Source: Algicola sp. (GTDB taxonomy: Bacteria > Bacteroidota > Bacteroidia > Flavobacteriales > Flavobacteriaceae). Taken from it: DNA of 43,249 nt. Shown here piece after piece: positions 40,345-41,743 of the stretch. Each line of letters opens with the position of its first letter. The stretch's first letter is position 1. The stretch covers positions 1 through 43,249 of the forward strand of contig JAAEZI010000025.1 of assembly GCA_018222915.1 (NCBI GenBank), in the 5' to 3' direction. The position numbers and the translations under genes were made by a program. The notes below the pieces were generated by a model, which was not told where the DNA came from, searched no databases, and saw only the letters and a program-made list of their open reading frames with translations.

Positions 40345-40384
40345 AAAAAAAAAAGCGCAATTCCAGTAATGGGTTGCGCTTTTT
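40345..40384. terminator. Bidirectional terminator after sucB
   Basis: AAAAGCGCAA (40351-40360) pairs with TTGCGCTTTT (40374-40383), with a short inner CCA/TGG pairing. About ten A precede it, giving a long T-run on the minus strand. The minus-strand strength supports a leftward transcript arriving from the 40413-40523 gene. Confidence 0.88.
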
Positions 40385-40412: not shown

Positions 40413-40523
40413 CTAAAAAAAATTTACAAGAATATTTATTGATATAATTAAAATGGCACTAAAAATTAAGCCAACTATAAATAGCTTATTGGTTAGACTC
40501 TGTTTGTTTTTCATCGTTTCCAT
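40413..40523 (-). CDS. Small single-pass membrane peptide (36 or 33 residues)
   Basis: The frame reads METMKNKQSLTNKLFIVGL, then IFSAILIISINILVNFF. A basic N-terminus precedes one hydrophobic helix, typical of a small inner-membrane protein oriented N-in. A second ATG three codons in (MKNKQ) is an equally good start. No family recognised. It lies between the third operator-promoter unit (about 120-140 nt upstream) and a terminator that is strong on its strand, which supports transcription. The overlapping plus-strand frame 40453-40539 is also hydrophobic but has no promoter and is probably a mirror image. Confidence 0.5.
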   Translation of the reverse strand: METMKNKQSLTNKLFIVGLIFSAILIISINILVNFF

Positions 40524-40554
40524 TTTATTTGTGTTTTAAAGATTCAATTTCGTT

Positions 40555-40653
40555 TTTAATAAAGCTCTGGGATTATGAAGATACCCAGAGCCTTATATAC
40601 CCTAATTAATTAATAGAGTTACCATAAAAAAATCCCTCTATTTCTAATAACTC
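40555..40653 (-). ncRNA. Candidate RNA 1 of the response-regulator array
   Basis: Leftward transcription from the promoter at 40659-40707 should start near 40653. The RNA begins AGTTATTAGAA and contains AGAGTTA/TAACTCT pairing, then a hairpin GCTCTGGG/CCCAGAGC (40564-40591) with a poor T-run. It may stop there at about 98 nt or continue into the small membrane peptide gene at 40523. A 21-codon frame (ATG at 40671) begins upstream of the predicted start and so would not be translated from this RNA. Confidence 0.35.
40564..40591 (-). terminator. Hairpin between RNA 1 and the small membrane peptide
   Basis: GCTCTGGG and CCCAGAGC form a perfect 8-bp stem with a 12-nt loop. The following minus-strand sequence, TTTATTAAAAA, is a weak T-run, so termination may be partial. 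Confidence 0.5.
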
Positions 40654-40658
40654 TGATG

Positions 40659-40707
40659 TAAAATTCGCCATAATACCTATATCAAACAATACGTAGTTCT
40701 ACGTATT
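40659..40707 (-). promoter_or_regulatory. Operator-promoter unit 1 (leftward)
   Basis: Palindrome AATACGTAG-TT-CTACGTATT at 40688-40707 has perfect 9-bp arms. Read leftwards its end supplies TTG (40689-40687), followed by a 20-nt spacer and GAATTTTA (40666-40659). The 7-2-7 core TACGTAG-TT-CTACGTA has the geometry of NarL-family sites, and the adjacent gene encodes a NarL/FixJ-type regulator. Confidence 0.6.
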
Positions 40708-40765
40708 TTTAAGATTTAAATGTTAAAGTTTCCAATATTGAAGACTTATGATGACATTCTGGTAT

Positions 40766-40801
40766 AAAAAAAGCTCTAAACGTTTTAAGGCTTAGAGCTT
40801 T
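40766..40801 (-). terminator. Terminator of RNA 2
   Basis: AAAGCTCTAA (40770-40779) and TTAGAGCTTT (40792-40801) form a perfect 10-bp stem. On the minus strand it is followed by a run of T (complement of the A-run 40766-40772). The orientation supports leftward transcription. Confidence 0.8.
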
Positions 40802-40837
40802 AATCCTTTTTTTTCAAAAAGGAAATTGATTAATAGC
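40766..40837 (-). ncRNA. Candidate small RNA 2 of the response-regulator array
   Basis: From the promoter at 40842-40890 an RNA of about 72 nt should start near 40837 with GCTATTAATC. It contains a CCTTTTT/AAAAAGG hairpin and ends in a canonical terminator. No ATG-initiated frame fits in it, so a regulatory RNA is the simplest reading. The single-stranded 5' end resembles those of RNA 1 and RNA 3. Confidence 0.5.
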
Positions 40838-40841
40838 GATA

Positions 40842-40890
40842 CAAACTTCGGTATATTTAGCGTATCAAACAATACGTAGTTCTACGTATT
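40842..40890 (-). promoter_or_regulatory. Operator-promoter unit 2 (leftward)
   Basis: Palindrome AATACGTAG-TT-CTACGTATT at 40871-40890, TTG (40872-40870) at its left end, a 20-nt spacer and GAAGTTTG (40849-40842). The 31 bp around the palindrome (40863-40893) are identical to those at 40680-40710. Spacing and element type are the same as in units 1 and 3. Confidence 0.65.
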
Positions 40891-40926
40891 TTTTGCTTTT
40901 TTGAGTATTTCTTTGTCCTAAAAACC

Positions 40927-40962
40927 AAAAAAAACTCTGAATCAAATAATGATCCAGAGTTT
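40927..40962 (-). terminator. Terminator of response regulator gene / RNA 3
   Basis: AAACTCTG (40932-40939) and CAGAGTTT (40955-40962), with inner ATC/GAT pairing, form a strong stem followed on the minus strand by eight T. It would end both the response regulator mRNA and the short RNA 3. Confidence 0.85.
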
Positions 40963-40997
40963 CGAGTAATTAAATCCTCCCTATAAGGACTAATAGC
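40927..40997 (-). ncRNA. Candidate small RNA 3 of the response-regulator array
   Basis: From the promoter at 41003-41051 an RNA of about 70 nt should start near 40997 with GCTATTAGTC and run to the terminator at 40962-40927. There is no ATG-initiated frame. The region from the -7 element through this 5' end aligns well with unit 2, while the 3' halves differ, so the units share promoter and 5' end only. Confidence 0.45.
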
Positions 40998-41002
40998 TAA
41001 TA

Positions 41003-41051
41003 CAAATATCAGTATTAAAACCTATAGGAACAATACGTAGTTCTACGTATA
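41003..41051 (-). promoter_or_regulatory. Operator-promoter unit 3, overlapping the response regulator stop codon
   Basis: Palindrome at 41032-41051 (one mismatch in the outermost base), TTG (41033-41031), a 20-nt spacer and GATATTTG (41010-41003). The response regulator stop codon (41043-41045) lies inside the palindrome. Confidence 0.6.
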
Positions 41052-41678
41052 TTTCGATAAAAATTCTTCATGCTCTTTAGCATACAAAACGATGCTGTTA
41101 GCTTTAGACTCTAATTGAAGTTTTGTTCTTATGTTACTTTTGTGTTTTTCTACGGTACGATCAGAAATAAATAATTCACTCGCTATTTCTTTGGCAGTTT
41201 TATTTTCAGCGATGTGTTTAAAAACTTTTAATTCTGTATCGGTTAAGTTCTTTAGTGCCTCAGGAGTCTCTTTAATTTCAAGGTATTCTATTAATTCAGG
41301 ACTGAAATAAGATTTTTCTTGAAGAACAGATGCTATGCAATGCTCGATTTCGGCAATGGCGAACTCCTTTAAGATATAACCATAAATTCCTAAGGACTTC
41401 GCTTGATTGTAAATCTCCTCACTTTTTTCAAATGTGATGATGATAATCTTGGTGTTCAATCCAGATTCTTTACATTTTTCTGCCACTTGTAATCCAGTAA
41501 GGATTGGCATTTGAATATCTAAAATAGCGATATCAGGTTGATGTGCACTAATTAAAGTGAATGCTTCCTTTCCGTTTTTGGCACTAGCAATGACATTGAA
41601 GTTTTTTTCTATAAGGAAATCATTGAGACCTTTCAGGATAAGCGGATGATCGTCTGCTGTTATAATTGACGTTGCCAT
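41043..41678 (-). CDS. NarL/FixJ-family response regulator
   Basis: A 211-residue two-component regulator. The receiver domain (1-120) has the acidic pair D9-D10, the phosphate-accepting D54 in DIAILDIQMP, the switch Thr of IIIITFEK and the conserved Lys of YGYILKEF. The LuxR-type helix-turn-helix (about 142-205) is clear: LTDTELKVFKHIAENKTAKEIASELFISDRTVEKHKSNIRTKL. No histidine kinase gene lies in the window, so it is an orphan here. Three copies of a 7-2-7 palindrome lie at and beyond its 3' end, and it is the obvious candidate to bind them. Its own start is preceded by TATCTTTA (41714-41707, minus strand), a near -7. Confidence 0.94.
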   Translation of the reverse strand: MATSIITADDHPLILKGLNDFLIEKNFNVIASAKNGKEAFTLISAHQPDIAILDIQMPILTGLQVAEKCKESGLNTKIIIITFEKSEEIYNQAKSLGIYGYILKEFAIAEIEHCIASVLQEKSYFSPELIEYLEIKETPEALKNLTDTELKVFKHIAENKTAKEIASELFISDRTVEKHKSNIRTKLQLESKANSIVLYAKEHEEFLSKYT

Positions 41679-41743
41679 GGGACTATTAATCTGAGGGATT
41701 GAAGTCTAAAGATAAAGACTTTTTGTAAAACGTCTATGAATTT

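Follow-up and report, generated by a model that had tools for sequence, protein, structure and literature searches.

A response-regulator-linked operator array in Flavobacteriaceae predicted to direct a family of paralogous small RNAs

Introduction

Multi-copy small RNAs (sRNAs) controlled by response regulators (RR) are already known as a kind. In E. coli, the twin sRNAs OmrA and OmrB are activated by EnvZ-OmpR and are described as exerting negative feedback on the ompR-envZ mRNA (PMC12692685). In Bacteroides thetaiotaomicron, the paralogous FopS sRNAs and GibS consist of a single-stranded 5' stretch and a terminator and pair with surface-transporter mRNAs; FopS has 14 members with canonical promoters, and its further regulator is given as unknown (PMC11697453). 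The same paper names Qrr (Vibrio), the Cia-dependent sRNAs (Streptococcus), and LhrC (Listeria) as multi-copy sRNAs (PMC11697453). Rfp18 of Flavobacterium psychrophilum is a conserved sRNA with predicted adhesin and protease targets (PMC9723704).

Post-transcriptional control is little known in Bacteroidota outside Bacteroides, and the genus considered here is one in which neither of the two RNA-binding partners searched for (CsrA and RRM_1) was found. RbpB, the FopS-binding partner, is an RRM protein. Qrr, the Cia-dependent sRNAs, and LhrC are controlled by LuxO, CiaR, and LisR, while the GacA-controlled RsmX/Y/Z system combines a LuxR/NarL-type RR, an upstream palindromic operator, and several sRNAs with GGA loops. 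NarL-type operators are inverted heptamers (7-2-7) with TAC/GTA at the outer ends, and an operator centered near -42 that abuts the -33 region is in the classical class II activator position.

The circuit that we propose would share with OmrA/B its RR-activated paralogous sRNAs, conserved pairing ends, outer-membrane or surface targets, and feedback on the regulator mRNA (PMC12692685). It differs in that OmpR is a winged-helix protein and Hfq takes part there, whereas a NarL-type HTH is found here, with no sequence relation known; moreover, the array here lies directly behind the RR gene, its two to four operators are almost the same as one another, and a small membrane protein would be under the same control. 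By analogy, the circuit resembles OmrA/B in its predicted working, with no evidence of membership in the OmrA/B family. With FopS/GibS, it shares Bacteroidota multi-copy sRNAs that carry a single-stranded 5' stretch and a terminator (PMC11697453). A partner of the RbpB kind was not found here, with PF00076 in 0/23 genus genomes. The likeness to GacA-RsmX/Y/Z extends to the regulator type, the palindromic operator, and several sRNAs with GGA motifs, which sit in the loop in class A units and in a stem in the class B units of the genus; CsrA/RsmA was not found in the genus (0/23). Qrr, the Cia-dependent sRNAs, and LhrC are alike in being multi-copy and different in phyla, promoters, and sequences. 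Rfp18 is unlike the array sRNAs in pairing via its third stem-loop and is described as conserved in Flavobacterium (PMC9723704).

No description of the operator, the array, or the sRNA was found in the open-licence PMC text searched, which consisted mostly of listings and the beginnings of abstracts; nor did that text describe the operator array behind the RR, the two-element pairing, the anti-sRNA, or their occurrence in Flavobacteriaceae. Viral contigs gave one partial match of 31% only.

Three identical operators behind a response regulator gene

The window, that is, the whole stretch of 43,249 nucleotides analyzed, holds the following features.

41043..41678, reverse strand: NarL/LuxR-type RR (P0001), 211 aa, REC and GerE HTH (Pfam and genus orthologues)
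41034..41049, no strand: operator 1, TACGTAGTTCTACGTA, overlapping the RR stop codon (zero mismatches)
41003..41033, reverse strand: inferred unit 1 promoter, TTG 41031-41033, 20 nt, GATATTTG 41003-41010 (sequence reading)
40928..40997, reverse strand: predicted small RNA unit 1 (class A), 5' GCUAUUA, UAUAGGG-loop hairpin, terminator (covariance model, fold)
40873..40888, no strand: operator 2, TACGTAGTTCTACGTA (zero mismatches)
40842..40872, reverse strand: inferred unit 2 promoter, TTG 40870-40872, 20 nt, GAAGTTTG 40842-40849 (sequence reading)
40766..40837, reverse strand: predicted small RNA unit 2 (class B), 5' GCUAUUAAUCAAUUUCC, hairpin, terminator (covariance model, fold)
40690..40705, no strand: operator 3, TACGTAGTTCTACGTA (zero mismatches)
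40659..40689, reverse strand: inferred unit 3 promoter, TTG 40687-40689, 20 nt, GAATTTTA 40659-40666 (sequence reading)
40524..40655, reverse strand: structured leader of unit 3, containing an attenuator-like hairpin and an element similar to class A; model match 40557-40620 (fold, model)
40413..40523, reverse strand: 36-aa single-helix membrane protein METMKNKQSLTNKLFIVGLIFSAILIISINILVNFF (ORF with genus counterparts)
40352..40384, no strand: terminator-like hairpin 3' of the small ORF, common to the convergent sucB (sequence)
41683..41698, reverse strand: RR mRNA leader UCCCUCAGAUUAAUAG, which lies 4 nt upstream of the AUG and is complementary to the loop and the 5' end of the sRNA (sequence, duplex energy)

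The original prediction had placed the palindrome TACGTAG-TT-CTACGTA at three positions, and TACGTAGTTCTACGTA was indeed recovered without mismatch at each of them (40690-40705, 40873-40888, and 41034-41049); the 20-nt spans first given for it are TACGTAGTTCTACGTA plus two bases on either side. Reading all three copies leftward confirmed that TTG is followed after exactly 20 nt by GATATTTG, GAAGTTTG, or GAATTTTA. The palindromes are not a product of chance, as the window contains 6 strand-matches at ≤3 mismatches against 0.21 expected, and 0/100 shuffles reached 6. In units 1 and 2, GCTATTA begins exactly at the transcription starts that had been predicted (40997 and 40837), and the two short terminated RNAs envisaged there fit these units, by sequence and without transcript data. 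Unit 3 leads to a 36-aa ORF at 40413-40523, which did not appear in that prediction.

The link between the regulator and the array is conserved

The RR gave Pfam matches to Response_reg (1.2e-24) and GerE (2.2e-15), both above the cut-off, and qualifies as a NarL/FixJ (LuxR-type) regulator; D9, D10, D54, T82, and K104 do not vary among the 7 rows of alignment A1. Its orthologue was found in 22/23 genus genomes (68-100% identity), and it is these 22 genomes that contain one or more exact palindromes. The proposed association of palindrome and regulator was borne out in all of them, with 2-4 operators or near-operators behind the RR (22/22). The first operator lies at most about 310 nt from the RR stop codon and overlaps it in 16/22. 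In one genome (L054), all three units carry an altered operator, TACGTAAAGTTACGTA, and the single exact palindrome stands elsewhere.

A third operator type, AGGTAAATATACCT or AGGTATATATACCT, replaces TACGTAG..CTACGTA in L037, L038, L040, L041, L054 (second class A unit), and L192 (genome G011). In G011, no RR match was obtained at E ≤ 1e-40, and no RR gene is present between the asp-protease gene and the array. The array itself is kept, with AGGTAAATATACCT as the operator of unit A, a hybrid of TACGTAG..CTACGTA and the third type at unit B, and a 1-mismatch operator at unit C. A co-deletion of RR and array in this genome was thus ruled out, as the RNA array is present under altered operators.

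The family sample consisted of the best 80 RR loci from a search of named genomes, two of which (L097 and L098) duplicate genus members. Among these best 80, at least one operator-like palindrome within ~1 kb after the RR was found in 69, which extends the link to the family; two or more operators were found in 42 and none in 11. Operators resemble each other within a locus (mean mismatch 0.83 nt, 70 pairs) far more than between loci (3.29 nt, 7556 pairs). When relatives were compared, the flanks diverged while the operator, its spacing, and the RNA 5' end were retained, the very pattern that was to support the claim. The neighbors in the best 80 loci were the asp-protease gene (78), sucB (66), sucA (64), and TatD (64), counts that are limited by the 4-kb flanks.

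Residue 177 of the RR, which we take to align to a DNA-contact residue of NarL, was compared with operator base 5 in 91 rows. Rows with E177 have no C arm (68/68), those with H177 have C in both operator arms (5/5), and 11/17 rows with D177 have it in a single arm. This could not be retained as decisive proof, since the tree gives 2 independent pairs on supported branches; with so few independent changes, the covariation is consistent with the RR-operator link and does not prove it.

Operators elsewhere keep a promoter-like spacing

The whole genome contains 6 exact copies of the palindrome, the 3 of the array and 3 elsewhere, against 0 for the reversed control pattern. At 2 mismatches, the control outnumbers the palindrome (15 vs 11), so only exact or near-exact copies are meaningful. 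The three exact non-array copies lie near genes that we presume to be acyl-CoA-binding protein-, heme peroxidase-, and AraC+BLUF-like.

Promoter geometry was assessed in 34 regions picked among the matches listed, which gave 37 distinct non-array sites (74 sides); some of these are closely related (for example, L083/L084, two in L073, and L078/L086). A box that agrees with TAnnTTTG at 5 or 6 of its 6 positions stands at offset 22 or 23 in 24/37 sites, so that the spacing noted in the array recurs elsewhere: there were 11 matches at offset 22 and 13 at 23, and 0-4 at every other offset from 0 to 49. The box is missing at 13/37 sites. The non-array operators stand before varied genes.

TACGTAG-TT-CTACGTA conforms to the 7-2-7 layout of NarL-type operators, and its species variants keep TACG/CGTA, which the search pattern demanded. 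We infer that TACGTAG-NN-CTACGTA is the operator of the RR, on evidence of co-occurrence and covariation only, without binding data. Because the operator abuts the -33 TTG, activation is inferred and is more likely than repression; promoter activity and direction are themselves inferences, for lack of transcript or DNA-binding data.

The units are predicted to encode a covarying RNA family

The units are predicted from sequence to encode a family of ~70-nt RNAs that begin with 5'-GCUAUUAAU, continue with a hairpin that covaries and has (U)AGGG(A) as its loop, and end in a terminator. Class A units come first and are sometimes doubled, class B units follow, and the last unit leads to the small ORF; some loci are without one class. 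The (U)AGGG(A) loops are found in class A units, and genus class B units carry GGA in the stem. The motif [GT]CTATT[AT] occurs 28-42 nt downstream of the palindrome in 39/62 genus and 90/124 family units, against 1.6% in shuffles, a count anchored on the palindrome with no selection on the motif. By contrast, the 52-unit alignment was drawn from GCTATTA-bearing units, and the invariance of GCTATTA there reflects this selection.

The 52-unit alignment folds as a small hairpin plus terminator, with 94.5% of cells paired. Two-sided changes were seen in 13/19 pairs, and 118 two-sided cells were counted against 40.2 in shuffled alignments, slid versions being far lower. This covariation is mostly in the terminator; in the small hairpin, only two pairs have two-sided changes (6 cells). 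Fold z-scores were -5.43 for unit 1, -4.47 for unit 2, and -4.43 for unit 3 (40555-40655). The covariance model built from the alignment (R1) scored 52.9, 54, and 39.3 bits on units 1, 2, and 3 of the window; the first two of these had been part of the alignment behind the model, and unit 3 had not. Structured and covarying, the units support the small-RNA reading that had been put forward.

R1 matches were found in 20/20 sampled genus genomes, and 57 of the 65 listed matches lie in the array by coordinates; array matches were also present in G004, G011, and G022. At E ≤ 5e-4 with stricter filters, 29/80 sampled family genomes had matches. An RR-type operator stands at 47 of 49 printed R1 units, which were printed partly because they had one, and several listed matches stand elsewhere. 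In Rfam, the array had no match at the gathering score; tRNAs and a single DUF805b motif were all that was found there for the window and six relatives.

A dispersed sRNA of the array type (GCTATTAATTCAGAGGGA) is present in the window's genome at C2:75623 (G000, L233, reverse strand) behind a different palindrome, TACTCAAATTGAGTATTG. This copy stands under TACTCAAATTGAGTA, and the dispersed copies in L254-L256, L259, L271, and L278 have the same operator type. The pattern TACTCAANNTTGAGTA gave no matches, as the actual spacer is one base. The C2:75623 site had been a candidate sRNA target and was ruled out as such, being the antisense of another sRNA of the array type.

Complementarity to the leader of the regulator mRNA

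The window RR leader, UCCCUCAGAUUAAUAG-UCCC-AUG, matches GCUAUUAAU...AGGGA of the sRNA by complementarity. Its duplex with unit 1 was computed at -16.4 kcal/mol, and 10/100 shuffles were as good. The element ATTAATAG occurs no more than 70 nt upstream of the RR start in 10/22 genus loci (an eleventh has it in the first codons) and in 23 of the best 80 family loci. Within 40 nt of the RR start, it is found in 33/79 sRNA-bearing loci vs 0/21 loci without sRNAs, and TCCCT in 42/79 vs 0/21. The 33/79 vs 0/21 contrast is confounded, because sRNA-less loci are often leaderless, with a kinase overlapping the RR start.

No more than 5/100 shuffles pair as well as the RR leader in only 40/79 loci, and the window locus is not one of them; in L039, L041, L047, L048, L050-L052, L117, L126, L127, L139, and L156, 63 or more of 100 do. 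In family loci, the RR leader outpairs the leaders of the asp-protease gene (48/54), TatD (39/43), and sucB (42/47). The Algibacter-type RR leaders have the two elements in swapped order. The sRNAs probably act through base pairing, although no transcripts attest to it, and the RR's own mRNA is a likely target, inferred while the pairing in the window is non-significant.

Further candidate targets and a putative anti-sRNA

The pattern TCCCTN{0,8}ATTAATAG gave 130 matches in 23 genomes vs 30 for the reversed control, and these were assigned by sequence and place. At least 16 are antisense to sRNAs, 14 of them on the antisense strand of the array and 2 opposite dispersed sRNA-like copies (G000 C2 and G002 C10). 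RR leaders account for 8, the HU leader for 18 (8 loci read, 8/8 before HU), the anti-sRNA candidate for 16 (11 read), and adhesin-like leaders for 7 (5 read), while 65 remain unassigned. In 58 genomes outside the genus, a slightly longer pattern gave 53 matches vs 8 for the control; 25 of the 53 are antisense of sRNA units, and several others read sit inside genes.

One adhesin-like protein (L216), the only one searched in Pfam, matched HYR_4C (3.2e-20), its other matches being weak; the remaining ones were grouped by their similar N-termini. In the window's genome, the adhesin-like gene (L236) extends past the contig end, and unit 1 is predicted to pair with its leader over about 20 pairs (-31.9 kcal/mol). 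For HU, pairing of the window's unit 1 with the HU leader of G001 gave -13.0 kcal/mol. HU is possibly an sRNA target, and the conservation of its leader may have other reasons.

In the anti-sRNA candidate, UCCCUA(A)UGAUUAAUAGC leads into a strong terminator (11/11 read: L235 at G000 C25:38414, L065, L237-L244, and L251). The 3' arm of this terminator is ACUUGCGCUU, and a TAnnTTTG box stands about 40-50 nt upstream; the RNA would be about 55 nt long if counted from UCCCU, and closer to 100 nt should that box serve as promoter. Its pairing with window unit 1 was computed at -22.8. We infer that this conserved short RNA, with the target sequence before a terminator, probably sequesters the sRNAs. 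The gap between the two halves is 3 nt in the window RR leader, 4 in HU, 3-4 in the anti-sRNA candidate, and 6-7 in adhesin-like leaders. A separate observation near one anti-sRNA locus is an Rfam DUF805b RNA motif above its gathering score (L239:2192-2229).

A proposed circuit and its alternatives

We regard as the best explanation, and as a probable one, an RR-activated operator array that would yield paralogous sRNAs and a small membrane protein, the sRNAs pairing with RR, adhesin-like, and possibly HU leaders; our confidence was lowered slightly because the window RR leader misses the shuffle cut. In this circuit, a signal would phosphorylate the RR, which would bind TACGTAG-NN-CTACGTA and activate 2-4 near-identical abutting -33/-7 promoters, with the operator centered near -42. 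The promoters would yield two or more paralogous ~70-nt sRNAs and the mRNA of a ~36-aa membrane protein. The sRNAs would expose 5'-GCUAUUAAU and the (U)AGGG(A) loop, both of which would pair with leaders carrying UCCCU...AUUAAUAG and thereby repress the RR's own mRNA (a negative feedback), adhesin-like mRNAs, and possibly HU. The anti-sRNA would buffer the sRNAs, and the small membrane protein would work in parallel. The operators, the RR link, the promoter-like spacing, the RNA covariation, and the recurrent complementarity can be read from the DNA itself; that the RR binds DNA and activates, that the sRNAs pair and repress inside the cell, and that the anti-sRNA and the small protein have the roles given here is inferred in the absence of expression or binding data.

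Multi-copy RNAs under a LuxR/NarL-type RR, with an ANGGA-like loop within a conserved hairpin, could also be protein sponges in the style of CsrB/RsmZ under GacA, their (A)NGGA loops titrating an RNA-binding protein and mRNA pairing being secondary. We consider this improbable: a sponge for CsrA or RRM_1 proteins is unlikely because neither CsrA (PF02599) nor RRM_1 (PF00076) was found in 23 genus genomes (0/23 each, the RRM_1 positive control being detected in a Bacteroides), a sponge would leave the 5' GCUAUUAAU unexplained, and complementarity to leaders is recurrent. The test covered these two families only, not Hfq, ProQ, or cold-shock proteins. Somewhat less remote, though still unlikely, is that GCTATTAAT...AGGGA and its reverse complement form a near-+1 DNA site for a second transcription factor at the sRNA, RR, adhesin, and HU promoters, with RNA complementarity as a by-product. 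The elements do lie near a presumed start or promoter box in the sRNA genes, HU, adhesin-like genes, and the anti-sRNA, and their orientation differs between sRNA and target genes. Yet the gap between the halves varies among gene groups (3, 4, 3-4, and 6-7 nt), the order of the elements is swapped in some RR leaders, the sRNA stem covaries, and unit 1 matches the adhesin-like leader of its own genome over about 20 pairs.

That the RR represses these promoters, the sRNAs being made while it is inactive, is about as doubtful as a second factor: an operator abutting the -33 element could occlude RNA polymerase, but all three window -7 boxes begin with G instead of T, as suits promoters that depend on an activator, and class II activators classically bind with the center of their site near -42. 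As for palindromes that are merely mobile or structural repeats without relation to the RR, tandem copies of identical sequence are what one would expect of them; position, spacing, and RR association are nevertheless kept over many genera, and the operator sequence changes together within a locus, which leaves this reading barely tenable.

If the RR-activated circuit is correct, a two-component output would be written largely as small RNAs, and with the operator, the RNAs, the feedback site, the targets, and the antagonist all proposed from sequence, it would form a compact, testable marine circuit tying an unknown signal to surface adhesins and perhaps to chromatin. Covariance model R1 enables annotation across the family. 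We advance only tentatively, at somewhat under even chances, the wider proposal of a family-wide Bacteroidota hub, in which a GCUAUUAAU plus AGGGA-loop seed, placed under TACGTAG..CTACGTA, TACTCAA-N-TTGAGTA, or AGGTAnATATACCT, would repress its own RR, adhesins, and HU by two-site pairing without CsrA or RRM proteins and would be buffered by the anti-sRNA.

The small membrane protein, adjacent kinases, and other operator-borne genes

A 36-37-aa single-helix protein is encoded after the last unit in 22/22 genus loci, and 70 of the best 80 family loci have a hydrophobic ORF of 26-62 aa after the RR, a count without background control. The loci of Altibacter and Aequorivita lack an sRNA, and the operator there immediately precedes an ORF of this kind, with hardly any leader in between; the small protein is therefore possibly the ancestral output, to which the sRNAs may have been added later. 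It is perhaps a feedback partner of the kinase; this, like the order of events, is an inference.

For three loci, from Altibacter, Galbibacter, and Aequorivita (L128, L162, and L164; about 1.95-4.0 kb), a further ~2 kb upstream of the RR was read; in each, a kinase of 672-677 aa overlaps the RR start, and that of Altibacter (L128) matched TPR, HisKA_3, and HATPase_c in Pfam. No kinase is present beside the RR in the window, and the window's genome contains no close relative of the Altibacter kinase, the best match being 34% over the ATPase end. The "orphan" RR probably lost an adjacent kinase, an inference made without a rooted tree.

At one of the non-array sites (L007:2381, G000 C49), the operator lies between a lipoprotein-like gene and the presumed AraC-BLUF gene, whose product we take by its look to be AraC fused to a BLUF blue-light domain. 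Operators also precede defence-like genes in L064, L074, L075, and L091, which presumably resemble SLATT, HSP90-like ATPase, SIR2-like, and AAA/OLD-like defence genes, and the RR regulon may take in such genes.
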